Shown piece by piece: positions 6,635 to 41,109 of a stretch of DNA of 64,000 nucleotides. The notes beneath the pieces were generated by a model. That model saw only the letters and a list, made by a program, of their open reading frames with translations. It was not told where the DNA came from and ran no database searches. The first letter of the stretch is position 1. Each line of letters starts with the position of its first letter. The stretch is from contig JAYKXP010000019.1 of assembly GCA_037176845.1 (NCBI GenBank), forward strand, positions 1-64,000. The letters run 5' to 3'. The DNA is from Paramarasmius palmivorus (lineage: Eukaryota; Basidiomycota; Agaricomycetes; Agaricales; Marasmiaceae). A program made the position numbers and the translations under genes.

Positions 6635-6676
6635 ACATATGTTTTACACCGCCTTCTTGTAACCGACGTCTTGACA

Positions 6677-7041: not shown

Positions 7042-7094
7042 AGTACACTTACACTTTCTTTTTTGACTAGCTCGACTAATTGTTTCTGATAAGC

Positions 7095-10011
7095 ATGGCT
7101 CGGACTACCACCCAGAAGATCAAAGTCACTAAGAAGGCCGCGACGCCACATGGGAAGGCCAAAACGCCTCAGACCATGGAGGCACGCAGCAACAAAGGCC
7201 ATTTTACCGGCGACCGTCTTCGAACTTTGAAAGACGCCCTGCCAACATTCTTGAAGTTGGGGAAACGAAGCAGGGAACGTTCAGCATTCTTTGCTAGTTT
7301 CATGCTTAAATTCCTCGCACTGTATCCTCTTGCCGACTACCCCTTACCACCTGACACCATGAAGCCACTTCAGCCGCTGACTCCCGAAGAACGTGCGGCT
7401 CTATCACCTAGCGAGAAAGAGAGACGATGTAAACAGGAAGGACGAAGAAAGGACCGTAGTGACGAAAACCGTTTACTGGTGGTGGGTGTCGTTCATTTCC
7501 AGCTTTAGCCCTAGCCTGATGTCTTTCTCTAGTTTGTCAAACAGTGGTTCGTTTACCAAGAGCAATTAGGTGAAAAGGATAAGGCAAACCTTTTCGAGTG
7601 CTACCTCTCTGAATTGAACGAAAATGTTCAGCGACCCCGCCGACGACAACTTCGCCAATTCGTTGCCACCCATCCCTCATATATAACACGCGTTACCGAG
7701 AAATCTCAAGAGACCGGAAAGCGAAATCGTTTGAATTGCCGAATGGATGCTGCCTTGAAGGTGATCCAAGAGCTATCGGAGGAGGAAAAAGCCAGTCTAG
7801 AGAACGAGCTTGAGGAGGAATACCAGGCGCTTCTGGAGGAGTACAACGAAGCGAAAGAAAACATGGAGGTGGAAGATGGCGACATCTCAGATGAACAGCA
7901 GGCAGTGTAAGTATTTTATTTGATTGTTCGACGTCAAATTCCTTTCTAACGCGCTCTCTTATAGCTGTCGAGCTAATCTACCTTGTGTCCTCCAACCGTT
8001 CCTACATCAGATTCGGAAATACACGGGCCTAAACGTCATGCTCACTGTTGGCCGTTTCAAAGGAGTAATGGACAATCAGGAGAAATATGACTTCGTCTCG
8101 TGAGTATGTTAATGATTACATACTACCCTTTCTAATAGCCGACCTTTAGCCTGTTCTCAGTACCAGAAGGTGCGCCCGAATGGGATATATATCGCACCGA
8201 CGAGTACAGGGACTTTGGACGGAGATGGTGTTCATGGGTACGTGCCGTGCGCACGTTTCAGGACAACCAAAGTGCCGATAATCCTGAATCCTCGTCAACT
8301 CCAAATGCCGCCTCTACTTCTATTCCTGGCCCAAGTGATGTCTCCAGAAAGCATGCTAGAAAAGCTCGTCGCAAAAATGACGATTCGGATTCGGATTCGG
8401 ACGAGACCGAGGAAGAGTTGGACGAGTCGGATGAGATGGACGAAATGGACGAAATGGACGAAATGGACGAAATGGACGAATTGGATGGCGAAGACCCGAA
8501 CATTGATACCGGTGCTTCGAATGTCATAAACAAGCGACCACCCACATTCCAACTCCGAGTCCCTGACAACCCAACATCTGAATATGATGACCAACGAATC
8601 AGGAACATCAAAGCCAACAATGCTGTACTCGCGAAACTCTTCGAATCTATCCCCCAGGAGGATTGGCCCTCCAGGCCTCAAACAAAGAAGGCTAGAAAGG
8701 TGAAGGTTAGGGAGAAACGGCCTGAGGTATTGAGAAGGTCGAAACGAATCTCTAATGTATGTCTTCAAGAATTTATCTCAATTTTGTCTTGCTCACATAT
8801 GATTTACATCTAGGTACTGGTTCCGGATACAAGGCAGCTTGACGAAGAGAGCACGACTATCTCTACGTCTTCTTTGCCACCTAGAGCAACAGCCAATTCA
8901 CCCCCTTCACAAACGGCAAATACATCTTCATGTACCTCGCCACCAACTGCACCTCATTCCACTGCAAATCCACCTTCTATTCCACCAGCAGTTGCTCCAG
9001 CAAAGGACTCGTCCCCTTCTCATCCTTTGCTGGAGTTGAACTCGCTCGCTACAGCACCAACTACTCCCGATGCCGGTGTGAACCATGACAATGTTCCACC
9101 AGCAGTTACGAATGATCGGGTCGTTTATCTCTTGCCAGAGTCAAACCTGCCGGCTACTGCATCGGCTTCTCTAGATGTTAGTGTGAACGGTGAAGGTGAT
9201 GATACCGAGATTGACAACACGTTTCGCAAGCTCTGGGCCGAAATTAAAACCGGAAATATTGCGGATGCGGGATATCCTTTCGAAGCATGCGAGATCTCTT
9301 GGGTTCAGGACTACGCTGAGTTCCTGATGGCTATACCGCCTGACTTCGACTTGGAGGAACGGCCGAAGGAGTTCGTTGATTGTATCTATCTTTGGATTTC
9401 AGTGGAGGAGAGGTGGGCTTTGAAGCTCGAACACTGTGCGTTGCCCCACAGGTATAGAGTTGATGGGCTTGCCTATTGGTTCAAGGCACACAGGACAAAG
9501 ATGGTTAAGCCACCATCTGACGTTAACTTGGAGGGAATCCGTGGTCAGTTCTGGAGATGGCTGGCAGACTGTGCGCCTACGTGGATGGAGAAGGATCAGA
9601 AGGGCCGGTTACTCCCAAGCGGGCCATCTACCAATGGTAACGTTGAAGCTCTTATGTGCCCTGGAATGTCTGGCTTTGTCCTCCTTCTCATCGCTCTTCG
9701 ATGGTGGTGCGACTGCGGCGGTGCTACGGATGACTCTGGATTCTGGATGGAAGCAGTGAAGTGTGTTCATTCTTTGCTTTCCGGTCTTTTGGTAGCCCCG
9801 TAAGTGTTTTTCTGATGGTTTGGGTGCCTGTAACTTATTCGAACTTCTTAGTTTTCCCGATTCCTCGAGCGACGACTCTTCAGAGAGGTCACCGTTGCCG
9901 AAACGGAAGCTGGCAACACCTACGACGCCTGCAGCTAGGAAACGACCTGGACCAGCTTCTCAATCAAGCACTCGTGATTCTCGTCGTTCAAACAGGAGGA
10001 GCCGTAGATAG
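7095..10011 (+). CDS. Large cargo protein of unknown function, LRWW family (copy 1)
   Basis: Six exons (7095-7481, 7533-7906, 7965-8099, 8150-8756, 8814-9799, 9852-10011) join in frame to about 880 residues. The N-terminus is basic, with a helical block (KLGKRSRERSAFFASFMLKF). A TGLNVML..GRFKGV segment follows, then an acidic run with a DEM triplet repeat (about 8430-8485), a basic patch, a Pro/Thr-rich linker, and a C-terminal globular region ending IRGQFWRWLAD...LLLIALRWWCDCGG. A lysine/arginine-rich tail resembles a nuclear localisation signal. Two paralogues in this window (11403-15188 minus; 35497-39424 plus) share the N-terminal helix, the TGL/TGF segment and the WW..LRWW region, and each lies near a TET/JBP gene. 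I know no named domain for it. Partnership with the dioxygenase is an inference from that co-occurrence. Confidence 0.75.
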
Positions 10012-10324
10012 GTGCTGGGATGTCTGGATGCCTTTCATTGGTTTTTGGTGCCTTCTTGATGATTTTCACTTGTGTAAGTCGATAGAGTACCTAATATTTC
10101 ACTCGTTTTTTGTCCTAAAAGGGATTAACCCCGGAAAAAAAGGTAAAAATGTCTGGAATGGGTTGGTAGCCTCATTTTGTAGTGCGCGGCATCAATGCCG
10201 CAGGTGCCGGGGTGCGGGAGGCTTTTAAGCATTTGTGAACCTAGCATTAGACCGCAGCCTTTGTAAAGGTGTCTTCGTTAAGTTAACGACCGCCTTTACA
10301 AAATCCGTATAAGGTCGGCTGTGG
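10012..10324. other. Gene-free stretch with inverted repeats, probable right boundary of the first cargo cluster
   Basis: No coding sequence is seen. Two perfect inverted repeats are present: GCGGCAT/ATGCCGC (10186-10201) and TTTGTAAAGG/CCTTTACAAA (arms 10260-10269 and 10293-10302), the latter enclosing GTTAAGTTAAC. Clathrin-coding sequence begins abruptly just beyond, near 10333. The stretch may therefore hold the end of a second inserted element whose other end lies left of the window. No match to the terminal repeats of the element at 10653-25619 was found. Confidence 0.4.
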
Positions 10325-10652
10325 CCTCAGCATGCTGTTCATACTTCTTGTAGATCGTGAGGGCTTCCTCGTACAGGCCATGCTCAATAGCGATCCTGGC
10401 AATTTCACCAGTATCGTAGTTCTGGAGCTTGTTGATATAACCTACGACTTTCCCTTTGTCCGCCCGGATGGCGGTGAGGAGAAGCAAATTCTGGAGGTTC
10501 TTGTTGTCACTGAACGGAGAAGGCTTGATGACAATCTTCTCAAGAAGCTCGATAAGCTCGATGGGGAGGTCGGCGGTGAGGAGAAGCAAATTCTGGAGGT
10601 TCTTGTTGTCACTGAACGGAGAAGGCTCGATGACGATCTTCTCAAGAAGCTC
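10325..10652 (-). pseudogene. Clathrin heavy chain fragment downstream of the transposon insertion
   Basis: Reading minus from 10652 the frame gives LLEKIVIEPSPFSDNKNLQN...LLTA, then DLPIELIELLEKIVIKPSPF..., IRADKGKVVGYINKLQNYD and LYEEALTIYKKYEQHA. This is the clathrin heavy chain leg region, around residue 1010-1120 of a protein normally near 1,680. It continues in frame from the main pseudogene body at 25620-29075 if the intervening element and one 8-bp repeat are removed. A 34-residue (102-bp) in-frame tandem duplication is present. Homology stops abruptly near 10333, after YEQHA, so about 560 C-terminal residues including the trimerisation region are absent. The fragment is non-functional as seen. 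Confidence 0.85.
10645..10652. repeat. Left target-site duplication (8 bp)
   Basis: AGAAGCTC, identical to 25620-25627. Both copies lie in the clathrin codons for IELL, and removing one copy plus the element restores a continuous frame. Confidence 0.85.
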
Positions 10653-10720
10653 AGCCGATCTTGTTGGGCCATTGCAAGGACCAAGGAGTATAAATCCAGT
10701 ATGACATTGCAAGGTACTAG
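10653..10720 (+). repeat. Left terminal inverted repeat of the KDZ element
   Basis: It pairs with the reverse complement of 25552-25619 over about 68 nt with one 1-nt offset. The best blocks are CATTGCA near 10670 and 10693-10715, which matches 25557-25579. The outermost dozen bases match poorly. Confidence 0.75.
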
Positions 10721-11402
10721 GGGAGTTTTTGGGCGATTTTTTAACCTAAAGAATGTCCAGATAACCTAGGATAACCCTATTCCACGGTCCTGCTAAGTAT
10801 TTACTATGTCCTGCTAACCCACGGAAAGTACTTAGTATCTCTGCCAACACCGGATAACCTATTGCAAGGTCCCACTAACCATTTACTATGTTTGCTAACC
10901 TGTACTAACCAGCCGAGACATGGCTCAATGCCTACTAGGTTCTTGCACAAATCACACCTGGAACTAGGGGATTACCACCTAGCGTGGGGTACTCACTGGA
11001 ATAATCACCATTTGGTGTAATCCTCTCATTCAAACCACACATGACACCAACTACGACAAACGCAGCAAAGTCCAACCTGCTGTCATTGCAATGTTCCCGG
11101 TATAGTCCCAACTACGACAAAGACAACAATGTCCTGCCCACTGTCATTGCAATGTTCCAGGTATAGTTTCCGAAACATTGTAGACACAGCTCAACAAGTC
11201 CATACCCCGATAGATACACGCCAGAGTTTACACCTCAGTGATTACAGAACAATATAGGATATTTTATTCACATGAACACATCAAACACATCAAACACAAC
11301 GAAGTCTGAGACAAAACCATTGCAACGTCCCGGAGCTTGTAATTGCCCGGGTCATTGCAATGTCCTCGACACGTATCTCGTGATCATAGTAACTCTACCA
11401 AG
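10666..11402. repeat. Subterminal repeat array of the KDZ element (CATTGCAAGGT-like), no gene
   Basis: Between the left end and the large cargo gene no coding sequence is seen. Copies of a motif close to CATTGCAANGTCC lie near 10670, 10705, 10861, 11093, 11144, 11318 and 11352, all in the same orientation. Four inverted copies lie on the right side (25332-25600). Two of the left copies sit in a degenerate tandem repeat of about 58 bp (about 11048-11166). Dispersed subterminal motifs of this kind are commonly transposase-binding sites; that role is inferred here. Confidence 0.6.
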
Positions 11403-14400
11403 TCACTTACGTCTCGGCTTCTTCGACTGTGTACTATCCTTGCTTGGTTTGCGCCTCTTAGTGCCTCTCACATCCGTTGAAATTGTCTCTTCGTCCTCCG
11501 TCGAGTCTGAGGGGGACGGATTGCATCTAAAATCCATGTGAACAACCTGCCGGAGATAAACGAAACGCGACCTACAGGTCTTTGAGTAAACGCTGAAGTG
11601 TACACTCTACACTCTTGAGTGCCTCCATACACATCCCGCGTTCGTCCGTCTCGCCGCACAGGTCGAACCACCACCTCAAAAGCACCAAGGTGAGGACTAT
11701 CCCGTCCTTTCCCGGTGCCTTCCCGTGCAATTCGTCCAGATCTTCTTCTAGTTTCGGCAAGACATAGCCGTCGTGACGTTCCCTTGAAGAGGGGTTAATG
11801 TCTGACCACCAGTTCCAGAACTGCGACCGGATTTCTTCCAATTTGCAACTCGGAGGAGGGGTGCCATTGCCGCGCATGCGTCCCTGCCTCATCCACCAGG
11901 TAAGAGAGTCTGGCCTGCTTGATGTAGGAAGCCGCTAGTACGGTGATGTCAGCACGTTCAAACATATCTGACTTGAGGAGAACTCACCCCAGCCTTATAT
12001 TCCAACTTGGCATATGTTTCTTGGACATCAGCCCAAAGGTAAACCACTGAATCCCATTCGCCGGGCCTTCTGGGATACTCAGGGCCCAGGTCGGCTCTCA
12101 GGTAGGTTATCATGTCGGTGATAAATGACGATGAGGCCCCCGCCGGTGCATATTTCCTCATTTTTCCAATCGCAAGTCCAGCATAGGCCTCAACAACGCT
12201 AACCGAGCGGGCGCAGGGACTTTCATCCAGAGCTTGGGGTGTGGGGTCTTCCTCGTTCGCAGCATTCTTGACTTCAGCGGGAGACGCCAAGCCCATGGTT
12301 GTCGTCGTTGTAACAGCCTCTACTTGTTCCGTTGTCGGAGCAGAGCATTCAGGTGTCTCTGCCGATGCCATTCCTATGTCGTCGACATCAGTATCGGTAG
12401 TAACAGCAGCAGAGGTCGAATTGTTGGTAGTTTCGCTGCTGGGACTTTCGTTGAGGTTGGTATCATTTGTGTCGTCGACATAGGTATCGGTAGTGACGGC
12501 GGCAGAAGTCGAATTATTGGTAGTTTCGCTGTTGGGACTTTCGTTGAGGTTGGTATCCAGAGGCAATGATGTCGAGGTTTCCAGTGTCGAATGAAGGGCG
12601 GTAGTAGGACCCGTAGATGGCACTGGATTCTCGAGACTAGAAGAGACTGAGACTAGCGACGAGGTACAATCCAATGGTGGTGACCTCGGCGGAAGGGGAT
12701 TTAGTGTGGGAGTTTCTTCTGCTGGTTCGCCTGAATCTCCATAAATAGCTGAGTTGATGTTAGGAATCTACAGTTCAATCAACGTAAGTATTCATACAAA
12801 CAATGAGAACATCATTCCACGCACCTCTGGACAATCCCCCTCTCCCATTACAAGCCACTCGCTCAGTAGCGACACATGTCGTATCCAATCCGCATGCTCC
12901 TCTGAGTCTTTTGGTAGAGTTTTATTCACCAGCTCTACAAACTCGGGAATCTCCATGGTTGTTGACATGAACTTTGTACGGGCATCAATAAGGATTTGAG
13001 CCTTATCACCCAAGCCGGCCTTGGAATTGACCTCGCCACCGTTGGAATTGGAATCTTCGGCTCCGTGGAGCTCTGTATCTGCATACTGAAGAAAGAGTCA
13101 TCAGCAAGCAAGATCCAGATTTCTGCAGCGCGTCGAGAAACCTTACCGTCGTCACCTCGGTTTTTTTCCTTGTCGAACGTCTCAGTTCTTTGGGTTGTGT
13201 TGTCGTTTTCGGGTTTCGCTTCTTGACTGGTCTCTGGGCCTTCTTGCTTTCGATGAAGGGCTTGTCAAGACCTAATTCCTTCAACATCATCTTGTTCCTA
13301 GCAATATTATTGGCACGTTCCACCTCGTAGCTCGACAGTCCGGATCTCGACGACGACTCCAGCTCCCCACCTATTCCAGCGCCCACGGCTTCTCCATCTT
13401 CGTCTTCATCGCCCAAATCTTCCTCATCTTCTGTTGGCCCCTCGTGGTCTTGGCTATCACTGTCGGTGCTGAGCTCGTCGTCGTCGTCGGTCTCGATGTC
13501 TTCTGACTCATCCGTCACAGCCTTGCCTCGTGCCTTTTTTCCTTTACGGGACTTTCCTTTCTCGGACTTTCCGCTCCGCGCTGGTTCGGAACTTGGACCC
13601 GGCTCTGAAGCGTTCGAGTCCTTGGACTCTTGAGACTGCGCGAGATGATTAAGCCAAAGGTAAAAAAATCCCATGAAGTCTTCGAGTTTCTCCGGGGAAA
13701 AATTGACCAACTTGGTGGTACCTTCAGGCTGGGAGCTGTACCTATACGAACATGTCAATCTTACAGAAATCAAAAAACAAACTCGAAATTGGCGTACATT
13801 GCAGAATCAAAATGACCCTTTCCATCTGCATCCAATCCTGCTAATAGCGCAAAATTGAGGCCAGTACGAACGTGAAGCTCGTCCAACAATGGCTGTACAA
13901 TTCGTCCTATGCTACTTTGATAGCTGTGAATAGGTAAGGAAACAGAATGGCAACATGAACGGTTCTCGAACTGACCGGAGTTTTTCGTCCTCGTCACCCT
14001 TGAGTGACGCCTTCCACTCCTCTACTCGCTTCCTGTGGCTCTCGTTGACTTCTGAAGACAATGCCACCTTATCTTCTTCTGGCATGTCTTTGAGTAGACC
14101 TTGAGCAGCCTTGTTCCTTGCTACTAAACGATTTGCCGAGCTCGTCTCCTCCGACTTCTCTATGACGCTCAAACGGTGCTGGGGATGCTTGATCAACGCC
14201 TGAGCTAACGACGGCTTTTTCGGCGCTTTCTCTTTACTCTTGACTGACGACAAAAACTTCCCCACCGAAACTTTTCCAGCACCTCGAACGTCTCCCCCAT
14301 GCCACTGGAAATAGTTTGTTAACGACTGCGGATCTCAGGTTAGTCGCACTGTAAAGTAAATGGATTCATACTCACATCTCGAAGATACTCATCTTCCCCG

Positions 14401-15188
14401 CGACTCCTCAACTTCACTTTCCTCTTCCATGCCTTCCGCTCGTTTGCCGTCATAGCAAGAATATCAGCCTCCGTCTTCTCAGGTAGCGGTGGCTGAGGTT
14501 TGTGACCAGGCACAGGATACTTGTCTGTGGGAAACTTCTCGATGAACTCAACAAACGTCTCGCGAAACAATTCGGAGCGAGCCTTGCTGCGTTTAGGCAG
14601 CTTCTTGTAGATTTTCAGCTTCTCCTGGAGGTATTCCTCGCGTGGCCCATCGAAGTTGCTAGGTGCGCCTACCCGCTTCTTTTTGGGTATCTTGCTCGGA
14701 GACAGAGCCACGATGCCACGCGGACTTTTGAGCTTCAACTTCTTGGTCGCTGAAGAGGACGGCGTGCTTGGAGTCGATACCTCTGTGGACTTCTCGGTCG
14801 ACGCTTCCACTGCAGGCTCCGAAGTCAACGTGGTCGTGTTTGAATCGTTGGATGGGCCCAGTGAAGATGAAGGAGTGGGAGAGGTGTTTTGCATTTTTTT
14901 AGAAGGGTCAGGAGCGGGATCGGAGACAGGAGTATCATCAGCATCGGTTGCTGTGGGTGAAACAGTCGACGGAGAACCATTCGGTATGGCTGTTGTAGGT
15001 ATTGATGACTCGCTCATTTCGCCAGGGACCTTGTCGACAGAAGCCGCCAATACAGGTGGTGCAGGAGACGGTGAAAAAGACGAATGGCGTGAGGCTGGAA
15101 GTACAGAGGAACCAGCTATCGTCGGGATTGCCGTGTCGGTTTTCCCGGCAGTATTGCTGGGTGAGAGGATATCCTGGTCAAGCGGCAT
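11403..15188 (-). CDS. Large cargo protein of unknown function, LRWW family (copy 2)
   Basis: Minus-strand multi-exon gene; stop TGA at 11403-11405, preferred ATG at 15188 (MPLDQDILSPSNTAGK). The N-terminus is a long Ser/Thr/Pro-rich region. Next comes a conserved block (YLQEKLKIYKKLPKRSKARS...FRETFVEFIEKFPTDKYP), then a RTGLNFALLAGLDADGKG segment, a strongly acidic and Ser-rich part with basic KSEKGKSRKGKKARGK, and the C-terminal IRSQFWNWWSD...VLLRWWFDLCGE region. The short last exon is basic (KRRKPSKDSTQSKKPRRK). It shares block order with copies at 7095-10011 and 35497-39424, while the low-complexity linkers differ completely, so it is an old paralogue rather than a recent duplicate. It reads toward the left end of the element. 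The function is unknown. Confidence 0.72.
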
Positions 15189-15569
15189 GGGCGTAGAGGT
15201 ATGTACCACTTGTCTGGCCAGTCGCAAATGGGTGATAGCTCAAGCGTTCAGGAAGGGGGATAAATTCCAGGACCTTGCAATTGCGCCACGTGCGTATATT
15301 TCCTCAAGATCGGGCAATCCGGATGGTAACAATCGGCCAAATTGTTACTCCAGCGATCCAAAGCAATATGGCCGCCGACAGTCTGGGACGTCCATGGCAT
15401 GTCAGTTATCGTTCTCGTTGGATATTGCTCTATTTCGAGTTGGATGAACTACGGCTGACTATAGACAGGTAACGAATTTTTCAACAATGATAATTCCAAT
15501 ACAAAATACTGTACCAAGCCAAATCACGCTCTGCGGAATTCGAAATACCTTAACATCTATCATCTCAGG

Positions 15570-16034
15570 TCAGCGTTTCATTCCTATCTCTAATTCACGC
15601 GTACCTTCCTGGTTAGTCAATCGCGCCGAGTGACGCCTGTAATTTCAGATCTGTACGCTGGTAAGATTAAGAGAAGCCTGAAGGTAAGGTGCACATACCG
15701 CATCGCTTCTCTCTCTTTCAATGTCTTGCGGATGTATCGGCGAACGTCCATCAGCTTGTCGATTAAGTCTTGCGTGTGCGCTAGGCGATTTCCAGGCCAT
15801 TTCGAATTGACCTCTTCCCCCTTGCTGGGAAATATGGGTGAATCATCGTTATCAACAACGTCAAGACATTCATACGTACCAGTTTGTCATTTCATCTTTG
15901 TATTCCTGTCCGACTTTATGCTTATCATCCATCAGCTTGTCAATCAAATTCTCTACGACCTCCAGGCGGTCACGAAGATACTGGGAATCATTCTCTTCGT
16001 CGAATGGCAACGTAGGTTCGTGCACCGTCTGCAT
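15570..16034 (-). CDS. Small coiled-coil protein with duplicated LIDKLMD motif
   Basis: Three exons (16034-15880, 15824-15699, 15636-15570) join in frame to 115 residues beginning MQTVHEPTLPFDEEND. Two similar helical segments occur, one per exon: DRLEVVENLIDKLMDDKHKV and RLAHTQDLIDKLMDVRRYIR, so it probably arose by internal duplication and forms a coiled coil. An extra 5' exon upstream of 16034 cannot be excluded. It lies between the large cargo gene and the RNase H1-N-like gene of the element. No counterpart was found in the first cluster. The function is unknown. Confidence 0.5.
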
Positions 16035-16381
16035 GATTGTCAAATAGAGCTAATTACTTTGTCAGAAGAATATCTATCGGAAATTAAAACACTCACTCTT
16101 CAATTGGACCAATGAGCTCCCGGATATTGAGTTAATTGCTGTTGCTGAATCGCAAAGGTGGCGGATGGAGGTGAAGGTAATGGATCCGGAGCGACGGTGA
16201 GCATCTGACTAATCCCCAAGAGGAACACCGGCGGACCGCTGATGTTCTGATCTGATATCACTGAGCCTGGACCTACGTTATCAGATCCACATGCGCCACC
16301 TAACCGTGGCTTTTCTTTCTTACCCTTTCCCCATCAAAGACTTCACCTTTCAGTTTTTCCTTCACTCGTCTTCGCCATACC

Positions 16382-17375
16382 ATGCTCATCAGCGACGAAT
16401 ATACCACCGACAGGCAGGACTGGGATATCGACCAGCTTTGCGAGGCTTCCAGCCTCATTTATCCGGTTTTACCTCCTCGTGATACCTGGGCTTGCACGCC
16501 GACCTTTTACAACGTTACCACCCTGCCGTTCAAGAGCAAGAACGACAATCCAAACAAAAACTACTACGTCTTTATGGAGGCTCGTCGGGAAGGCAAAGAA
16601 CCTCGGTTTCGTGAGGGTATCTATCGTCACTTTTCGTGAGTTTTGTCTTTTTGTATCTAGATATATCTGACAGTCGCTTTTCATTAGTGACATTGAACGT
16701 CAAGTCCCCCTTGAGGATATGAAGAAGAACAACGTTTTCACCAAAGGCTTCCACACACTCGACGAAGCTCGCGAGTTCTGGAAGGAACGTTGCCCGCAGG
16801 TTCATTCTGGGTGCAGTGAGCATAACCGTCGGAGGGATGCTTCGTACGTTAAGCAGGTGAACAACTCAGCCTCGTATGCCAAGTCGTTGCTGGTCATGCG
16901 AGAGCTACTGTCACTTCACCCCAGCCTCGCCAATAAGGCCCAAGAATTGGTTTCTGAAGCTGCCCGCACATCTGAACCATCGACGTCGACAGCTCCGCGC
17001 ACTCCAAGGGCGACTCGTTTCCTTCGTCCTAGGGATTCTCCTCTATCTCCCTCAGCTTCAACTTCTCGTGTCTCAACTCCGTCGAAGAAGGTCACTGGCG
17101 TGCCTTTGCCTTTCCCCGATCCAACTTTCAGCCTTTACGTTGTCAATGGAGACGACAACTCCATCGTCGAACGATTTGATGGGTTGTAAGTGCTACTTGC
17201 TGGCGAACTCATTGAATACTGAATGTTTTTCAGGCGCGAGGCCTTTTTTGCTGCCCTCGAAGCTCGAGGAAGGATTGCGATACTTCTCGCTTCTAACGAG
17301 GACCAAGCAGTGGAGCAATGGGTGAAAATGCGCGGTGGAGATGGGGACGTTTACGAAACTAGTTATCGTGGTTAG
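16382..17375 (+). CDS. Cargo protein with two RNase H1-N/viroplasmin-like modules (copy 2)
   Basis: Three exons (start ATG 16382, introns at about 16638 and 17187, stop TAG 17373-17375) give roughly 290 residues. Module one reads YYVFMEARREGKEPRFREGIYRHF, then a helix-forming FHTLDEAREFWKERC, the typical pattern of the RNase H1 N-terminal domain. A Ser/Pro-rich linker (about 16960-17110) follows. The C-terminus has LYVVNGDDNSIVERFDGL, then EAFFAALEARGRIAILLASN and EDQAVEQWVKM, a second module-like unit. It is a paralogue of 5722-6634. Its strand is opposite relative to the dioxygenase when the two clusters are aligned, so this gene pair has been inverted in one element. No catalytic RNase H part is present. 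Confidence 0.62.
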
Positions 17376-17797
17376 ATAGAATATGTACGCTGAAGTTTTC
17401 GAAACGAAATTGATGTTGTTCAATGTACCTCCCGGGACTTGACTAGTATCACCAGATCTAGTGAACGTGAAGCTTTCGACCGTGCGCTGCTCAACGACCC
17501 GAGGATGTCTTGAGACTAACACAAATGAAATGATGTGAAGGTGATTGAAACGAAGAGTTTGGCGCCTACCGTTGAGGCGAGTGAGGACAAAGACACCATT
17601 CGCCGTTGCTATATGTCACTGGAAGCTTAGATATTCAGTATACATGCTAAGGACACCAAATCGTCACTTATTACTGAATTCTGGGACAAACTAGGGCCAA
17701 ATGAAAAAGTAAGAAAATTGGATCTGTAAACCCTCGAATTCCAGATTTATCACAGTCCTTAGAGCGCTCGCGTCTTGTCACTCTTTTCCTCACTCAA

Positions 17798-18608
17798 ATG
17801 CCTCGCCGCAAGATTTACATCAGCAAAGAGCAGGTCAAGAATGCCAATCGGGAGAAGTCAGCCAAATATTACCAGAAGTATGAATTTATTTTGCGACTGT
17901 ACTACATATAACATACAATTCATGTTACGACCTCTAGGCATCGTTCGAAAATACTAGCCAAAAAACAGGCGGAACGCGATGAACAGCGCCGACAAGACGA
18001 CATCAAATTGTGAGTGCAGTTCTTTATGTCAGGGCTGTTACTCATATTCTTCAAGCATTGAACGAATGAGAAGGAAACGGATAAGGAAGTGGGAAGACGA
18101 TCAGAAGGACCTACGAGGACCAGTTGACAGCTGGTGCGTTTCTATCTTTTCGATGATTATTTAACAGTACAAAAGACCTTCACGTAGTGACCCGCTATCC
18201 CGAATCAAAGCTCTCAACCACTCCCTCATTCGCATAACCCAGCCTCAACCAAGTCAGTATTTGGACGGCGTCTATCACAGCTATGTCAGGTCTTGCAACA
18301 CTCCTCGGACCACGGCCCCACAACTCTGTCCAGTCGAGAACGCTATCACAGCAATAAATTCGGTGCTTCGCGGTGCCGATGTATTCTCTAATCGTATTCT
18401 TCAGAGTTATGGTGTTACCGACCATTATCGCAGAGCTAGCCAGTTTTGCAAGAGGCTTCGGTGGATAGTTCGATGCCTGGAGGACATGCAGTATAAATTC
18501 ATGGATCCAGACGATGACCTGGAGAAAGCGTATGCGGATAGGCGACTCTCGTTTCAAGACCCACAAACAAGGGATTGGATTGATGGTTCCGCTTCCATCC
18601 CTGACTGA
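17798..18608 (+). CDS. Small basic cargo protein, family unknown (copy 2)
   Basis: Four exons (17798-17877, 17938-18009, 18056-18133, 18188-18608) join in frame to about 216 residues. The first three encode a basic helical region (MPRRKIYISKEQVKNANREK, HRSKILAKKQAERDEQRRQD, ERMRRKRIRKWEDDQ). The last exon encodes a more globular part with GVYHSYVRSCNTPRTTAPQ and DHYRRASQFCKRLRWIVRCL. The basic half resembles the gene at 4619-5242; the globular half is missing there. Nuclear nucleic-acid binding is plausible from charge only. It follows the RNase H1-N-like gene on the same strand, the same order as in the first cluster. Confidence 0.62.
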
Positions 18609-18680
18609 CGGAGTACATAGGATATATTGTTCACTATTCAATGCTAGGTACCTCGTTACAAATAATGTTCGTTTCAAATA

Positions 18681-19435
18681 TCACAACTCTGATGCCTCGT
18701 CTGATGCCTCCTTGTCCGACGCCTCGTCCTTCGACGCCTCGTCCTTCGATGCCTCCTTGCGCTTCTCGTATAAATACACCGTTCGATATGGGACGGTGAC
18801 AACCTTGCTTTGGTCCGGAAAGAAGACTGCGCGAAATCTGGGATCATGAATGATGCGAATGGTGTTCTCGACAGTTTTCATATCTGAACAAAGGAGGAAC
18901 AATCGGTCAACATATGGCATATGGTTAGGCAGGGAATGGTGGACCTACCAAGATTATGACCATCTGGAATAAAAATATCCATGGCAATAGTTGAGGAATC
19001 GACGACTGTGCCGACAATTTCACCGTAAGGGGCGGCGGGTTCAAACCCCTGCCAAGTAATGTTAGTGATGTTCAGGCAAAAAATTTAAAAGAAACGAGAG
19101 AACGACCCACGTCTTGGAATGTAATTTTGACTTTAATTCCATCGCATGACTGCATTAACCCATGATGGGCAATCTCGTTCACCTGCTCTGAGTTAGTCAC
19201 TGAGTGATCAAGACTGACAATGAAGGGCTGGATTTACAGAGAGAATACGTCCGACAAGACGAACGCGTTTGCCGACAAACTGCTCCATTTGTTCTGCGAG
19301 TATAGGAGGCGCCGGAATGATCGGTTCCTCTGGCGTAGTTGAACCAGGAGCACTTTCCTCGTTGTTTGTAACGACGGCTGCAGAGCCTTCTTGAGAGATA
19401 TCGTTCGAATCCATTGGGATATCCACAGTGGCCAT
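18681..19435 (-). CDS. RPA3/RPA14-like OB-fold protein carried by the KDZ element
   Basis: Minus gene in about four exons, ATG at 19435. After an acidic leader comes APPILAEQMEQFVGKRVRLV then GRILS, like the start of the RPA small subunit (hydrophobic helix, then a GK/RxVRLVGRI strand). Further on are KVKITFQD, GEIVGTVVDSSTIAMDIFIP, and MKTVENTIRIIHDPRFRAVF, matching the C-terminal D-NLxxxNxxIxIIHD-F helix of that family, which packs in the RPA trimer. The tail adds a KDEAS repeat (about 18690-18760) not usual for RPA3. RPA3 normally helps hold single-stranded DNA-binding RPA together; a role in transposition or repair after base oxidation would be inference. Assignment is by pattern only. 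Confidence 0.5.
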
Positions 19436-19561
19436 GATGGACAAAGAAAAGGAGTGGTGACTATAAACTCGTTGATGCCTCGATACGATGCGAGAACCCT
19501 AAAATACTTTTTGTGATGATCAGAAAAACATGGAAAATAAATTTGAATTGACTAAATACAG

Positions 19562-21555
19562 CTAAGATACGGTGCGACGAGTATGTAATTGTAATTCCTC
19601 CATAGTTGAGAACATAGCAAATCCCGACGCCCACCGTTTGGAACCATCAGCAGCTACGCGTGCAGCTGAGACTGTTTTCTTGTAGTTCTGTTCAGCTTGA
19701 TAACCATGTTCTACCCACCGAAATAGTCCTCCTGCACTGTACATGGCAAACGAGTACCGTCGTTCATGGGGCGACACCTTGGTGTTGAGGTGACAAACCA
19801 GTGCGGAAGGGATGAAAATAGTTGTTCCGGGTGGGAATTCGATGATAAGCTTGAGATCCCATAAGACCAGATGACCGCCCTTGGTCCAATCGTAATCGCC
19901 GAGTGCGGTGATCGCACACCAACCAAACGCCAAATTCTTGATGTCACGATGCGGGTAACAGACCGTGGTGGGACCGAAATTGACGGTAAACGCAGCGAAT
20001 ATACACCTCTGAAATGGCAGGTGTAGATTTGGGTATCGAGCTAACAGCGAAGCTGTTATCTCAGCATAATACAGGAAGAGTTTGGGCGCCCAGGTAAGGA
20101 ATACCACTATGAGACTTCATGAGACTAAGTGACAGACTGTACAAGGTCAACATACCAGAAATAAATCCGGCCAAACGTTGGAAAGCCTTCATGGATCGTA
20201 TTTCTTCCAAAACGGCGGTGTTTTTAGGGTCTTGTGCCATTACCCGGGGCATCTGCCAAGAGGAGGTGAACAACGTTGAGTAATTTGCGACGACAAGGCT
20301 CACCTTTTGCCCATTTCCGAAGGATATACCGAAGCTGAGATGGTCAAACCGGCCACGACGAGGATCCAGCACATGCGGTCCTCCTAGACCCATACGAGCT
20401 AAGCGGCGTTGACGAACGGTGAGCCTGGGTTTCTTGAAAGTGCAATGAGCGCGCAGGCGCTCAATCGCTGAGTTCATTTCTCGGACGTTTTGAGACCATG
20501 TGGAATCGTGCCTGGGACCGGGTACTATCAGGCCGATGACCGACGCTGACTGTGAGTGCAGAAGAGGACATGTGTCGCTACAGAAGATGTGACTGAGAGG
20601 TGATCGAAGAAAATAATAGTACTCACTGAGGGTTGTGCCTGTGCACACGGAAACGGAATTTGGGGCCTACAAGCTCGTCGTAGCTGTACTCGCGACGCGG
20701 TGGAAGATCTCGTTCAACCCCGAGATAGCCTGAAGCACCATGCGGCAGATGTTGATCCTCAAATTGCGGCTCCAAAGGTTGGGCTTGGGTGATGAGTTTG
20801 GGGTCTGGCTGATGGGATTGGATGGCCTTGACGTCCTGGCATAACGCAATGGACTTCAGAGAACGCTTGATTTGCCTATTTTGTTTACTCCGCAGCTTGT
20901 CACGGCTCTTGTTGATGCGTCAGCTACGTCCTGAGTGTTTGCGACGCGAGGCATGGTCTTCTGGGGGAAGCTGGTTGGTGGATGGTGACCATAAAGTTGG
21001 ATCCTGGCTGAAAAGGGACTGAGAAGAATCGGCATTCGGTAGTGGCTGAGTGCTAGGATTTGGGGCTGCGGCAGAGGCGAGGAGCGGTGAACCAGGAGGT
21101 GTTTGCGGCGGGGTGTCAGGTGGTGTCGTCAAAGGTGAATCAGTCTCGACGGTGGGATGCTCGGCAATTTGTAACGCCCGTAGCAGAAGACTATCGAGTT
21201 CTCCTTCAGCGGCTACGACAGGAGTTTGGTTTGAGTCAATGGTGTCCTGTGTAAGAGTCAATAGCACCCAGGGATTGAGAAGTGATCACTCACAGGGTCC
21301 CTGATAAAAAGTCCCTTCAGCCTATCTTCGTAAAAATGAGTAAAATTGAATCAAACATGCTCAACAGAGGGCGAAAAGGGTAAATGAAAACCGGACGGTG
21401 ACTAGGTGTTCATGCTTTCACAGGTTCCCGGGCATCGAGTACACATGAAAGCCTTACAGAGCAAATAGTCAAGACGTCACCTGGGAGAAACAAGAGAAAT
21501 ACAGCCAATCAAGTTCGTACTCACCTGGGATTCGAGTGATGAACTCGAAGGACAT
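19562..21555 (-). CDS. TET/JBP-type 2-oxoglutarate/Fe(II) dioxygenase (copy 2, with one in-frame TGA)
   Basis: The start MSFEFITRIP at 21555 is followed by a 32-nt exon (21325-21294) that joins in frame to exon three at 21246. The N-terminus is disordered (SPLTTPPDTPPQTPPGSPLL). The catalytic domain is complete: H and D in YPHRDIKNLAFGWCAI, distal H in LVCHLNTKV, and R in RRYSFAMYSAGGLFRWVEHG. Predicted to oxidise modified bases in DNA. The oddity is a TGA (20922-20920) inside the basic linker (RRKHSGRS-stop-RINKSRDK) with continuing homology in the same frame; no nearby intron removes it cleanly. It is either a nonsense allele, a sequencing error or an unrecognised splice. Divergent to the KDZ transposase 90 bp away. 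Confidence 0.8.
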
Positions 21556-21645
21556 GAGAGGGGAGAGTAAATTTTGAAAGTCACAGTGTCACATGGTGAC
21601 TCAACGCGTCAATCAAGTGACCTTGTTTATCCTTACACCACCATC
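21556..21645. promoter_or_regulatory. 90-bp divergent promoter between TET/JBP gene 2 and KDZ transposase 2
   Basis: The two ATGs (21555 minus, 21646 plus) face away from each other across 90 bp. The gap contains GTCAC at 21580 and 21588, GTGAC at 21596 and 21617, with the palindrome GTCACATGGTGAC at 21588-21600. The first cluster's shared promoter also repeats GTGAC. This tight arrangement suggests co-expression of transposase and dioxygenase. Confidence 0.55.
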
Positions 21646-24600
21646 ATGTCGAAGAAAGCGAAACCCCCAGAACTGAAACGCGTCTTTTTCCCAATCCGCA
21701 AACAACAAGCTATTATCTCTGCTCCCTCTCTCTCTCTCGATGGTCGCCGGATGATCAACACGGAAAAGAAGGTCCTCCCGCCGTCTCCAGAGAAGCACAA
21801 ACGACCGAAGGTTCTGGACACGATCATCAACGACCTAGGTGGATTCCCCAAAGAGAACGAATTCAACGATTTTATGGACGACTCCTTGTCGGGTGATTCG
21901 CCAATGTCCGGAGATATCGAGACCCAAGAAGATATTGAAGAAAGGGAGGTCAGAGGCAAAACAGCGGCGCGTCGTTCGTTTGCGACAGTGAGTTACGAGG
22001 ACCTAGCGCTGGTGTTCTGTTCTGATAATCTCCAGGATTCAGCAATGTCCGCTTGGCGCGAGTTGATACCCGACTTTCTCTCAGAACTCATGGCACTGGA
22101 AGGAAGGCTCGGCGGCGGCGTGTCCAAGTGCTCTAAATGCCAGACCGAGGCTCCCCAGCCGATACGGTGTCGAAGCTGCTCTGGAGGTAGCCTTTTCTGT
22201 GCGCCATGCATTGTTGAGTGTCACGGGAACCGGCCATTCGATTTTGTTGAGGTGTGTTGACTCTTCGATACAATCTAGATTAGGTACTAATGATTAAAGC
22301 AGCATTGGAATGGGGAGTTCTTCGAACAATGCACCCTCCAATCACTGGGTCTCGTCATTCAACTTGGGCATCCGACTGGCGAGAAATGCAAGGGCAGGCT
22401 GGTCCCAAGAAGTGGATTCGTCGTCGTCGACGTTGAAGGCGTTCAAGAGGTTACCCTTCAATATTGTGGCTGCCAACGCTTGGAGGAAGTCGGTCGGGAA
22501 TGGCAACAACTAATGCGATTCTCTCTATTCCCGGCGACTGTCGAGGAGCCTCACACGGCGTTCACATTTCGAGTTCTCAACCACTTCCACGTTCTTACCC
22601 TTAAGGGCAAGGTTACACTTTATGATTATTACGCTGCCTTGGAGTCGTTAACAGACGGTTCAGGTACTCGAAGTGTGAAGGTACGCGCTTTGTTGTGAAT
22701 CTATTACTGCTCGAGCTGACAAAAGGCACAGGACCGTTACGAGGCCTTCATTAGAGTCATGCGTGAATGGCGCGCTCTAAAACTCCTGAAACGTAGCGGA
22801 ATTGGGAACCAGCCAGGGCGTGCTATCTCCGACATCAAACCAGGCGAGCTCGCTGTTCCCTGCGTGGCATGTCCTCGACCAGGAATCAACATGCCGGATG
22901 ATTTCCAGACATGTTCGCCGCTATCGAAACAGTAAGTATCGGTGACTGAATATGGTCTATATGTTGATATTTCGCCCTCTAGATTCTTATACCACAAGTT
23001 CATTAGTATTGATGCCTGTTTCCGGCTGAAAAGACGGAAGATTTCCAGCGAGAAGAAAGACCCAGGACTTCTCACTGGTTTGGCTTACTACGTCCCTCAG
23101 GATCATTACCAGCCATGGTTGAAGAGCGTCGGTGAACAGAAAGAGGTGATGTACAATGCTGATCTGGTCGTTGCTGAGTTCTGACTGGATCTAGACAAGT
23201 ACGTGTAGCGGCCTAGCAGCAATGCAGCAGGCGAACACCAAGTACCATCGTGGCTATGCGACGATGGGAGCGATACTTTGCCTTTGCGCGAGACATGAGA
23301 TGGTCGAACCAAATGGAGCAGTGGACTTGAATCGTGGTGAACGGTACGTATTTACTTCATCTTTTGCGGACACATGTTGACTGGTGTTATAGGTTTGGTT
23401 TGACTGATTACGCAGTCGGTGCATCACAGCGACACTCCGACAAACGTCTCCTTCGAATTCTTTGCTACGACATAGCGTGCCAATACTTCAAGAAATTTTT
23501 TGAACGCATGGAACGTTTACCGGCTGCCGCTCGTATTGGTCTCTATCGCGACAGATGGAAGTTTGCTGTGCCTAAACTCCACATACAAGGCCATGAACGA
23601 CACTGTCAAGAGAATTTCGCACTCCACTTCATTCTGGGCGCTGGCCAGACGGACGGCGAGGGCATTGAGCGCCATTGGGCTAACCTTGGACCAGTTGCGA
23701 CTAGCACGCGTGAAATGGGACCGGGTCACCGTCGAGACACGCTTGATGATCATCTAGGGTCATGGAACTGGATGAAGATCATACGTCTAGGTATGTAATT
23801 CGGCCTCATGAAATTTCCCGAGGTGCTGACTTTCATGGATTAGGTTTCCTTCTGCGAAAGCGGCTATGGAACGCACACGAACAAGTGAAGAGGCAGCAGG
23901 CGGAGCTTTATGACTTCAGCATAGGCTTACCGGACTCTAGCATCGAGCTGTGGAAATCTATGGTTGAAGAATGGGAATATGGAAGGACGGATAAGAATCC
24001 GTACACGGTAAAACATTCAGGTGAGCATGGTTTGGTGAACGGTATTCTATTGAACTAAACCACGTTTATAGGTAAAACGGAACATGACGTTCGGTTGCAA
24101 TACGCAGAGAAGGAGGCACAACAACAGAAGCTAGGGATCCCGTCTTTGCATGAGGTGACACCTAGTGCATTCATGATGCTTGGTCTGGACATCGAGGAAC
24201 TGCAGTACGTAGTATGGTCATTCCATTCTTGATGATGTTGCTAATGTGATACTCTCTAGACGATCACCCGCATTAGACATGGAGGACAGCGAATTCAATA
24301 CTGTAAACCAACAAACCGATCTGCTCGACCGTCGTGCCCGCATTTCGAGGGGTATATCTCGTCTGCGTACCCTTCAGGAGGTTTACACACCTCTTGCATT
24401 GTCATGCATTGCAGAAGGCGCCGACGGGGAGGATGAAGAAGATATTGGGGTGGAAAAGGTGGCATTAATGCTGCCATCGCAGTTGCCGGAGAACATCCGA
24501 GGAGCCGAGTCTATGACCTCCTGGGTCAAAATGGAGGCCGACTTCCGCCAAGGACAGCTTAGGAGCAGCCTTGATTCCATCTGCATCCATCTCTTTATTC

Positions 24601-25331
24601 GGACGCGGCTACATACCGAGCGGGCGCTTCATATTCGACATCAACAAGAATCTACTCGAGCACGGAAACGGCTTGCTCAGAACGACAGGAAGATCGAGGC
24701 TTTGAAGAGACGGTATCGAGCTGCGTGGAAGGCTCTAGAGGTATTGGTGGGGCAGGCGAATATTGGGTGGAGGGAGCTACTGGATTCGGACATTCGCTCC
24801 TTCGACGAGGTAGATAGCCATGCCTACAAGAATGCTAGGAAGGTGTTGGGGAAGAAGCGAAGGGTAGGAGAGGATGAGGACGGTGATCAACCTCTCATCC
24901 GGCCTGGTGAATCCACAAAGACTGTGTCATGGATTTGGAAGGTTGTAGATCCCAATGGAGGTGATGAAGCAATGCAGGAAGCGGTCCGGGTGGAATGGCA
25001 GAAAGCATGGGCTAGGCAAAAGCGGTGGAAGGAGGAGATAGAGCTGTTGAAGGAGGAGATGAATAGAGCCGTGGCAAGCCTGCAGTATGAAGCGTCGCGC
25101 TGGCGATCGCTTGCTGCAACTACGGTCAATGGACGCAGTGCGGAAGGCTGTAAAGCCTATGCACTGCGTCAAGCATCCATACGGCAGGGGTTGGCAGTTA
25201 GGTTCAAGGTGCTATGGGCCCAGGGTCTGCCCAAGAAAAGGGCCAGACGACAGCTACCAAGTATGGACCAGATTCCAGAGCTAGACGTCGAGGAGGAGCA
25301 GGAGCAGGAGGAGCCCGAAGAATACTTCTAG
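21646..25331 (+). CDS. KDZ-superfamily transposase with CxC2-type cysteine cluster (copy 2, complete)
   Basis: Start MSKKAKPPELKRVFFP at 21646, stop TAG 25329-25331, about ten exons, no disabling stop found, roughly 1,000 or more residues. The cysteine cluster is CSKCQTEAP..CRSC..CAPCIVECHG (22125-22235). Putative catalytic residues are D in SIDACFRLKRRK (about 23010-23040), D in LCYDIACQYFKK (23462-23500) and E in DGEGIERHWANLG (about 23650-23690). A conserved stretch PVATSTREMGPGHRRDTLDD follows. The C-terminal 360 residues (24270 on) are helical and charged (QNDRKIEALKRRYRAAWKAL, RWKEEIELLKEEMNRAV), ending in an acidic QEQEEPEEYF. The gene abuts the right terminal region of the element and is its likely mobilising enzyme. 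It differs much in sequence from copy 1, so the two elements are not recent copies. Confidence 0.92.
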
Positions 25332-25551
25332 GACCTTTGCAATGTCCTTGCGTTTCCTACACCGGAACCTTGCAATGTGCGCACTGCTGGACGTTTCGTG
25401 GAATAATTTATGAATTATTTATGGGATTTATGGGCGATGTATGTTATGTCCTGATTTGGTATGAGATAAGTGCTTTTAAATATTTAAATATCTATAATTT
25501 CGAGCCGGATTCACTAGCTTAATAGGTTATACAGCTTGTATATAGATTGCC

Positions 25552-25619
25552 CGGGGACCTTGCAATGCCACCCTGGATTAGAATGCCGGGACACTGCAAT
25601 GACCCAGTATGAGCGGGTG
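25552..25619 (-). repeat. Right terminal inverted repeat of the KDZ element
   Basis: Mirror partner of 10653-10720, holding two TTGCAAT/CTGCAAT cores (the reverse complement of the left-end ATTGCAA motif) at the same distances from the end. Confidence 0.75.
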
Positions 25620-25627
25620 AGAAGCTC
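25620..25627. repeat. Right target-site duplication (8 bp)
   Basis: AGAAGCTC, partner of 10645-10652, immediately outside the right inverted repeat and at the start of the clathrin heavy chain pseudogene body. Confidence 0.85.
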
Positions 25628-28600
25628 GATAAGCTTGATGGGGAGGTCGGCGGTAAGGAACGCCTTGACGGTCATGGATACGTCATCGGGATCTGTACAT
25701 TCCACGAGTGCAGTGGCCACCAACTAACAGTGATATGAGTACTAGATATTTTGAGGAAAGGAGGACGGGTACCTGATCTATGAGCTGTCTGCGGTACATG
25801 TTGTCCGGTACCAGGACTTGGGCCCAAAGTTCGGGTTGCCTGCACTTCACAAGGTACCTGGCTTGCTGTTTGAACATCAAGTTTTCGTTGGTCAATGTGA
25901 TCAACTCCTCATCGCAGAATCCCTTTGCATATGCAATGAACGCCAATGATGGGTTGCGGGCAGCACAGAACTTTCCAACAACCAAAGGCTCGTACAACTG
26001 TAAGGAGAAAATCCATATGAGAAACTGTATAGCATTAAAACAAGGAAATCACTAACATTGTTCTCCTTCAGGAACGCTTCAGGGTTGTTGTTGCTATCGA
26101 TGTAAATCTTGGCGATAGCATTGTAAATGGCAGTATCCTGGCTACCAGCCTGGACACGAGCCTCAAGCCATGGAAGGATGAGTTTAAGCCTGTTGCGTTG
26201 CTCGACCTCTTCGACCAGCTCATCGATAGGGAAGTTGCCTGGGACGGATGCAAGCAGACTCTTGATGGTAGACTCGTCACAGTCCACGTCCAAGAGGCCA
26301 CCGACAACTTGAGGCGTGCGCACCGAGTTCACGCGTTGCACGTAAACCTCGATGAAGTTGATCAAGTTGTTTTGATATAGGTAGAGGACGAGATCATGGA
26401 CAAAGTCGAAACGATCACAGACGATGATGAGCGGCAGCTGATCAGAGAGCCTTGCCTCCTTGAGGAAGTTCTTGACTTTCTCGGGGTTGTAGTAGTTACT
26501 CTCGCGACAGATATGCTCGACTTCCCTGATTTGGCCTGTACGCGTGGCCGCTTGGATGTACTTGAAGTGCACCTCAGGGTCGGTACTGAGATTAACAATG
26601 GAGCCAAGGTAATAGTAGAGACCTTCAAACAATTAGCTATAAATCAAGTCGCAAAAGCTCGACAATACATACCTTCGAAGGTTTTAAAGCTCTCGAACAT
26701 CTCAATCAATGACACGGGACGCAGGATGTCAGAATACTTGGTGGCGATCTGAACAACAACCTGAAGATTCTGGCGCATGTTCACCCGAAGCATCTCTTGC
26801 AAGCAAGCCATAGCCTGCTCCTTTGTCAAGCGTGAGAAGTAGTTGATGAGCCACTGAAGAACGAAAGTGAGACAATGAACTTCAAGTATGTTGGCAATCA
26901 GAGCTTACATCTGGAGGAAGAGTGGTGGCATGGACGATGACTTGTTTGATATCGGCGAGGTCTTCATAGTGCTCGAGTGCCTGTGGCAATGCTTAAGATA
27001 GATATGCATGATTGAGAACAAGATGCTTACACAAATTGGCTATGCGCGGGCGATCATAGTGGGTGAACATCTCGTTGCCAAGGATTGCATCTGCAACTTG
27101 AGGGGCGTGCATAAGGTTCATCTCAAGCAGTCGAGTCTGGAGAGGTCCCTGCTCCGGCTTGTTCTCCTTGAGTGCATCCAAAAGGAAGGATACTGCCGGC
27201 TGAATCATGTTCTGCGACATGAAAGTGACCACAACCGTTTCGACGTCAACCAAGGGACCCATCTCATTGTTGACAAGTTGTGATGCAAACTCGGCACCTT
27301 TGTCAGGGTTGGTCCGCATGATGTGTTGCAAGAGTGCGACATAATCCGGAGTATAACCAACTTTCTTCGCGTAAAGAACGATCTTCTCAGTCTGACCAGT
27401 CTCTGCGAAGCAAGCAATGACTTTGTTGGGAACGTTAGCCCTTAGATAGACACTCAACGCCAGTGTCATATCGTGGAGTCGGACAATGTCACCCAGCTCC
27501 TCGCTGCAAGTAAGCTTCAGGAATCATTAGCAGGAGATATCAACCAACCAAAGACAAGGGTACTTACTTTTTGCTCCTTCAACCACTTCTCCAACAGTTG
27601 CTTGCGGCCCTGCTGTAATACAGGCCGTGCCAGCTCAAGGGACTCCAGATGATTGAGTTCGCCTTTTTCGAGGAGAATACCGAAGTACTGGAGAATGGGG
27701 GAGAGTCCACCGGGTGGCGTCGGAGCAGACTTGAAGGACTCGATGACTTGCACTGTTCGTAGAATACCCTATACGGCACAGCATGGTCAGTCAAAGAAAG
27801 CCGACAATATAAGCACGTACCCTTGGGGAATTGGCGGCAATCTTGGCGGCCTCTGAATACTGACCGCTCTGGAAGAGTTGTTGATATTGCTTGATGTATA
27901 GGTCATCAGCCCCCGGCAAATTGGCACGACTAGCCATCTTGAACGCGAGCTTAGTATTGTTCAGCGTGTTCAGAACGTATGGGACGATTGTTTGCTCATC
28001 CACATTCACGCTGAGCACCTGTCCCTTCTTGTTGACACCAATGATACCGTTTGTTGCCTCGTGCTCTGCAGTGACGAAGATGGTCTCTCCTGATATCCGG
28101 TTCATGTAGACGCAAGCTCCGGATTCGAGGTCGTATAGGTGAATAAACCCATACTTGGTCACAAGATATACGATTCCGTGTTTCTTCGAGACCTGCATTG
28201 CAACAGGGAAGTCATTGGTAGCTTCGGGAGGGAAATAGACGTCGACAGCCTTCTTTGCAAACGGAGGATCGGGAGCAGTGTGGTCTATTTCGACGATGTG
28301 AAGCTGTACAGGGTCACCTCAGTGAATGTTTTCCGGATAAACGAATAAGGGCGTACCTTGGCACCAGTTGCAGTGCGTACTGCGAATGTGAAGAGTTTGG
28401 TAGGCTTCTGATGTCCGTCAAGCTTCAACTTTGCAAATGCAGCTGCATGGCCCTCAATAGGTTGACTGACGCCTCGATCTCTGCTATACAGCTGCATGGA
28501 ACCCTTCACCTTGAAGGCAGAGGGGTTGTGTCGCCAATAAGAACTAGCCACTTCTCGTCCCCAGATACGCGATAGTTGATAATTAGAGCGCCTAATGATG

Positions 28601-41089: not shown

Positions 41090-41109
41090 AAGATCAGGGA
41101 GAGGTTGCA

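Follow-up and report, generated by a model that had tools for sequence, protein, structure and literature searches.

An apparently complete Kyakuja-like KDZ transposon, bearing TET/JBP-like and further genes, in a spare clathrin copy of Paramarasmius palmivorus

The first 64,000 nucleotides of contig JAYKXP010000019.1 of Paramarasmius palmivorus (assembly GCA_037176845.1), hereafter the window, contain a transposable element of the KDZ superfamily, element 1, which spans 14,968 base pairs (bp) at 10652..25619 on the plus strand. We read it, with a probability of roughly four in five, as an apparently complete Kyakuja-like cut-and-paste transposon that carries accessory genes and has inserted in a spare copy of the clathrin heavy chain gene. 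Directly shown are the ends of the element, its 7-bp target-site duplication, an empty site and the coding conservation of its genes; the cut-and-paste movement is inferred. The genome searched comprises 68.3 megabases in 393 contigs, and the window is the start of the contig labelled C19. Its introns and its KDZ and TET-like families suggest a fungus of the mushroom type.

Ends, target-site duplication and family assignment

Element 1 is flanked on both sides by AGAAGCTC (10645-10652 and 25620-25627), and on their own the insertions on C19 and C258 are compatible with a duplication of either 7 or 8 bp. Comparison with other copies settles both the length of the duplication and the first base of the element. 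A search of the genome with the left end, allowing up to three mismatches, found four places, on C19, C258, C182 and C253; the right end, searched with the same tolerance, matched only on C19 and C258. The right ends of the copies on C258, C182 and C253 were located via each copy's own left-flanking 7-mer in the surrounding sequence, where it occurs three times (C258), twice (C253) and three times (C182), the occurrence directly after GAGCGGGTG being chosen. This yields four complete elements whose termini are alike and whose 7-bp duplications all differ, namely AGAAGCT for element 1 (left copy 10645..10651, right copy 25620..25626), CAATAAC for C258 (14,704 bp), AATACCG for C253 (15,974 bp) and GAGGATC for C182 (13,603 bp). 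A duplication of 8 bp is excluded because the neighbouring bases differ in C253, C182 and element 2, a second KDZ element in the window that is described below; all five insertions fit 7 bp and three of the five exclude 8. Element 1 begins with CAGCCG at 10652 because C precedes AGCCGA in all four elements. An earlier note on this DNA had held that the borders resolve to the base and had proposed to look for other copies with the same ends and different duplications; the claim stands, with the start moved from 10653 to 10652 and the duplication shortened from 8 to 7 bp, and such copies exist.

The termini form imperfect inverted repeats, as had also been claimed, with the left end (10652..10681, plus strand) and the right end (25590..25619, minus strand) identical at 20 of 28 bases, a level reached by none of 20,000 random pairs of 28-mers taken from element 1. 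The corresponding identities are 20 in C258, 21 in C182 and 18 in C253, reached by 0, 0 and 1 of 20,000 random pairs, respectively. Inside the left end lie two subterminal TTGCAA motifs (10672..10712), whose starts, at bases 21 and 56 of the element, are the same in all four complete elements. Two further motifs mark the right end (25560..25599), starting 21 and 55 bases from it: the one at base 21 is exact in C182 and has a single mismatch in C19, C258 and C253, and the one at base 55 or 56 is exact in all four. The CxC2-KDZ transposase would probably bind these pairs of sites, centred on TTGCAA and lying about 21 and 56 bp inside each end, and would cut at the 5'-CA..TG-3' termini that the four complete elements share with element 2; insertion proceeds through a 7-bp staggered cut, as the duplications show.

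The transposase gene (21646..25331, plus strand; nine exons, 1,088 residues) matches the Pfam KDZ profile PF18758 at 3.7e-54 over profile positions 2-217 of 217, with 184 bits against a cut-off of 26.6, and the CxC2 cysteine cluster PF18803 at 4.8e-38, both features of the KDZ superfamily. TET/JBP genes adjoining KDZ transposases, together with CxC clusters, were reportedly described by Iyer and colleagues in 2014. Within the superfamily, the duplications and the CA..TG termini are those of Kyakuja. The main-text parts of Kojima 2025 (PMC12730594) on which we draw here and below describe Kyakuja elements that bear a TET gene, are delimited to the base, have 7-bp duplications and carry CA..TG termini, so this kind of element was already known. 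Base-exactness alone is therefore no ground for novelty; the earlier note had seen novelty in a base-exact composite element with this full cargo. Those elements (Kyakuja-1_LB, Kyakuja-2_LB and others) share with element 1 the KDZ transposase with a TET/JBP-type gene, the duplication length and the terminal dinucleotides; element 1 differs from them in its imperfect inverted-repeat ends, in a TET-like protein with Asn/Cys as opposed to the AG-type Gly/Ser and Asp, and in four further genes. KDZ1-KDZ3 of Cryptococcus neoformans, of about 9-11 kilobases (kb) and shown to move, likewise combine a KDZ transposase with a CxC cluster, but it is CxC1 rather than CxC2, their terminal inverted repeats measure 139-241 bp, their duplications are 8 bp (KDZ1) or 4-8 bp (KDZ2, KDZ3), and the relevant portions of that report name no TET gene (PMC12810828). 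As excerpted here, work on Pleurotus has CxC2 preceding intact KDZ transposases (PMC7641404), and work on Marasmius has KDZ elements with a characterised terminal inverted repeat motif (PMC8290104).

We regard it as unlikely that element 1 belongs to the Zisupton or Dileera branch of the superfamily instead of Kyakuja. Such a placement would suit its imperfect terminal repeats (18-21 of 28 end bases across the complete elements), given that two Laccaria Kyakuja families are described without terminal inverted repeats, and it would suit a TET-like protein that lacks the reported AG-type residues. However, the duplications and CA..TG ends agree with Kyakuja, whereas PMC12730594 gives a duplication of 8 bp, the length that the flanks of C253, C182 and element 2 exclude, for Zisupton and for a Puccinia family of Dileera.

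Six gene models and their recurrence across the genome

Gene models come from a splice-aware, home-made gene finder whose training set was nine open frames from the window; some of its output, a handful of models that were short or scored low, was set aside. Six are supported in element 1, where the earlier note had counted seven genes: the open frames at 11.9-15.2 kb are not separate genes but join into one seven-exon model (11572..15188, minus strand) for a large protein of 1,082 residues with no Pfam match and no known domain. Between this large gene and the transposase lie four others. Gene B (16382..17375, plus strand) encodes 297 residues with a weak match to the RNase H1 N-terminal domain (Cauli_VI). 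The product of gene C (17798..18608, plus strand), a small basic protein, has a basic N-terminus and a conserved C-terminus, and its C258 form, when searched, gave no Pfam match. The third gene (18681..19435, minus strand) encodes an RPA14-like protein of 192 residues that matches Rep_fac-A_3 at 5e-8, over the curated cut-off, with 33.7 bits in C19, 33.1 in C258 and 24.1 in C253 against a cut-off of 23.5; a comparison with solved structures ranks 4gnx_A first at 0.0014, a chain labelled no further than uncharacterised, with RPA14 chains behind it at E-values of 0.11-0.16. The fourth (19562..21035, minus strand) encodes a TET/JBP-like 2-oxoglutarate-Fe(II) dioxygenase in a 409-residue model. 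The RNase H1 N-terminal profile scores 0.038 against gene B of C19, 1e-13 against the same-place counterpart in C182 and 4.1e-6 against that in C253, the latter two over the cut-off. Searching the genome with PF01693 returned two places, both on C5.

The dioxygenase, which the earlier note had called TET/JBP outright, is better labelled TET/JBP-like, its identity being weak by sequence. In an alignment of 14 members the HxD..H motif is invariant, and by an ungapped count, with reference residues taken from published descriptions, all 14 have Asn at +5 and Cys at +11 after the first His. In AG-type TETs these two positions are described as Gly/Ser and Asp, respectively (PMC12730594 and PMC11040006, the latter describing the residues of CcTET, each as far as excerpted here), a combination seen in none of the 14. 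Nor do these proteins show the mark of the PE-type, which is described as having HxE in place of HxD, for HxD is present in every member.

How much of this gene set recurs can be judged from the other elements. Searches with the C19 proteins match all six in C258; the transposase, TET-like protein and large protein in C182; these three and the RPA14-like protein in C253; and the transposase, TET-like and large proteins in the part of element 2 that lies in the window. The order transposase, TET-like gene, large gene is common to all five. B-type genes are modelled in C182 and C253, and models of element 2 resemble B and C by eye only. Beyond these elements, nine more TET loci (L012, L015, L018-L021, L023-L025) hold relatives of gene C, and two (L010, L022) hold relatives of the RPA14-like gene. 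Loci L024 and L025 may be duplicates.

We counted gene order across the genome over 112 TET places (of at least 129, after removal of 17 that were second or partial pieces), 78 large-gene places (of at least 85, after removal of 7 second pieces) and 145 KDZ places (from the rows listed out of at least 178 matches, 5 second pieces being removed). Each of these lists gives a lower bound; the counts are raw, and some copies may be alleles. Among the matches listed, a KDZ gene lies within 6 kb at 48 of the 112 TET places, a large gene within 15 kb at 53, and both at 23. At 16 of these 23, the arrangement is that of element 1: the KDZ gene lies upstream on the strand opposite to the TET gene, at a distance of 1.1-4.3 kb, and the large gene lies downstream on the TET strand, at 5.4-9.3 kb; five keep the order of element 1 with the TET gene reversed, and two fit neither pattern. 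The listed pairs of TET and large gene within 12 kb number 60, of which 26 (at 25 TET places) have the large gene 5-10 kb downstream on the same strand, 18 have it 2.5-4.5 kb downstream on the same strand and 16 are arranged otherwise. An opposite-strand KDZ gene is listed within 14 kb upstream at 17 of the 25 places with the first arrangement and at 9 of the 18 with the second. On the strength of these recurring gene sets and orders we reject a chance clustering of genes.

Between C19 and C258, the ratios of nonsynonymous to synonymous substitution rates (dN/dS) are about 0.11 for the transposase, 0.07 for the TET-like gene, 0.13 for the RPA14-like gene, 0.08 for B, 0.07 for C and 0.19 for the large gene, figures that are rough because dS lies at 1.2-2.2, over 1. 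Because dN/dS is low in all six and the core order recurs, the extra genes have the appearance of a module belonging to the transposon and not of passengers. The term 'cargo' in the earlier note was right in that further genes are present and is probably misleading as to their nature. Starship transposons of Ascomycota carry such cargo: they too are large fungal DNA transposons with several genes, and they differ from element 1 in their recombinase class and variable cargo. That element 1 is a KDZ transposon with captured host genes of this sort, serving the host or nothing, seems to us quite improbable. Fungi are known to harbour giant transposons that carry cargo, and BLAST with the C19 proteins matches B and C in only one of the other three complete elements, C258. 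Against this stand the fixed order of transposase, TET-like and large gene in C258, C182, C253 and element 2, the RPA14-like gene in C258 and C253, the relatives of gene C at nine further TET loci, the low dN/dS of every gene, and the fixed strands and spacing of 26 and 18 of the 60 listed pairs of TET and large gene.

Apart from the roughness of the dN/dS ratios, several observations weigh against our reading of the genes as a conserved set with these identities. First, the training frames of the gene finder belong in part to these same genes, and the models are predictions. Second, the TET-like assignment is faint in profile and structure comparisons: the Tet_JBP profile matches 5 of the 14 members at E-values up to 1, the best of 9.4e-5 being below the cut-off; the member in element 2 reaches 19.5 bits against a cut-off of 34.9; the whole C19 model has no Pfam match; searches of solved structures with the TET-like proteins gave no match; and the predicted fold of the TET-like exon is unusable (pLDDT 34). 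Third, the RNase H1 N-terminal domain of gene B is below cut-off in both C19 and C258, and in BLAST the C182 counterpart matches that of C253 but does not directly match the protein of element 1. Fourth, searches with the C19 proteins at 1e-4 found neither B, C nor the RPA14-like protein in C182, and neither B nor C in C253. Finally, 64 of the 112 TET places have no listed KDZ gene within 6 kb, and 8 of the 25 and 9 of the 18 TET-large-gene places have no listed opposite-strand KDZ gene upstream; such absent KDZ or large-gene partners may be unlisted, cut off by contig ends or truly missing.

The spare clathrin copy, element 2 and neighbouring features

The transposase, TET/JBP-like and further genes lie within clathrin-coding sequence, as the earlier note had said; the interrupted gene is an extra, damaged copy, and not the clathrin heavy chain gene itself, which the note took to be split. 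Another copy, on C2, is modelled with 17 exons (the model being without the first exons) and is uninterrupted over the available stretch, on which ground a loss of clathrin heavy chain is rejected. The upstream part of the extra copy (25627..28713, minus strand) is 95% identical to the C2 clathrin; identity of the window copy to C2 is about 95% on the upstream side of the insertion and 98.9% on the downstream side, and the copy has a 1-bp gap in exon 6 relative to the C2 model. C2 also supplies an empty site, which the note had proposed to look for. When the flanks of element 1 are joined with one copy of the duplication removed, they align gapless to the C2 clathrin at 136 of 140 positions, and the reading frame runs on across the site, so the claim that the target frame closes on removal holds. 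C358, C292 and C26 were rejected as empty sites for element 1, for a 33-bp gap spans that site in them.

Between the two elements lies a clathrin exon piece (10322..10652, minus strand) with a 102-bp in-frame tandem duplication (10470-10652) beside the insertion, which is absent from C2. This duplication is probably older than the insertion, because its first unit spans the insertion site unbroken. Element 2 (1..10321, minus strand) is inverted and cut by the contig start. Its left end, CAGCCGACC, reads downwards from 10321; its right end is at C244:45661, a junction also present on C89, and is followed there by the identical 7-mer and the continuation of the clathrin sequence. The duplication TGGCCTC thus stands on both sides of element 2, at 10322..10328 on C19 and adjoining C244:45661 on C244. 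Summed over the two contigs, the element measures 11,795 bp, and its joined flanks align gapless to C2 at 146 of 147 positions; C358, C292 and C26 likewise match gapless at this site. The two KDZ insertions lie 330 bp apart, and the spare clathrin copy into which element 1 inserted is occupied by element 2 as well.

That the clathrin split is an assembly chimera is very improbable. C19 does begin inside element 2, and its start (1-867) overlaps the last 866 bases of C244 at 99.9% and C89 at 99.7%; C244 and C19 are probably joinable. Yet each insertion is bounded by an exact 7-bp duplication and has a gapless empty site on C2, and element 1 lies wholly within one contig. Copies or parts of clathrin also occur on C358, C292, C26, C89 and C244, contigs that bear KDZ or TET matches. 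The C2 clathrin lies about 22 kb from its contig end, and duplicated chromosome-end segments may be involved.

Least probable of all is that several nested transposons adjoin here by accident. The abundance of elements in the window (element 2, LTR-type frames, a Helitron domain) would favour this, but element 1 has a single pair of ends and a single duplication, and its core gene order is repeated in C258, C182 and C253. Elsewhere in the window, at 33544-39424, another TET-like gene is followed 4 kb downstream, on the same strand, by a relative of the large gene; this TET shares 92% identity with a TET on C358, which likewise bears a clathrin copy. A Helitron N-terminal domain (Pfam 2.3e-34) has a weak TET-like match (58392-58730; 2.3e-10) upstream of it, and the region 56501-63992 is possibly a TET-bearing Helitron with HxD. 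Frames of the long-terminal-repeat retrotransposon type at 40280-45121 include an integrase zinc-binding domain (1.5e-17) and an RNase H match below cut-off (9.9e-5), and a Ras-family GTPase gene (Pfam 1.2e-29) lies at 30281-30812 on the minus strand.

Possible roles of the accessory genes

By analogy with TET enzymes in the literature, the TET-like protein would most likely oxidise the methylated DNA of the element and so counter silencing by methylation. The RPA14-like, B, basic and large proteins would be accessory to the element, gene B with the least assurance; during transposition or anti-silencing their most likely targets are single-stranded DNA, RNA:DNA hybrids or chromatin. Tentatively, and with considerable doubt, we suggest that a conserved kit with which an element handles its own DNA is present in many KDZ elements of this genome. 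It would couple a TET-like enzyme outside the described AG and PE classes to single-strand-binding (RPA14-like), RNA:DNA-hybrid-binding-type, basic and large nuclear-type proteins, with a fixed core of transposase, TET-like and large protein. Our confidence in it is reduced because the RNase H1 N-terminal assignment of gene B rests on counterparts that do not match the protein of element 1 directly. A literature search at the level of titles and the opening lines of abstracts found nothing on such a module, which is no proof of absence. The main-text parts of PMC12730594 compared here mention no RPA14-like, RNase H1 N-terminal or similar further genes for Kyakuja, and report further genes in other superfamilies, such as a third protein in PHISTA and an alpha-kinase in IS3EU.

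If such a kit is real, these would be transposons that supply their own anti-silencing and strand-handling machinery. To the question why fungal transposons retain a TET-type enzyme the recurring partner genes contribute candidates that can be tested singly, and the delimited elements provide exact ends along with an empty control site. Should the pattern hold in other fungi, the extra genes of such elements would serve the life cycle of the transposon rather than being random cargo.

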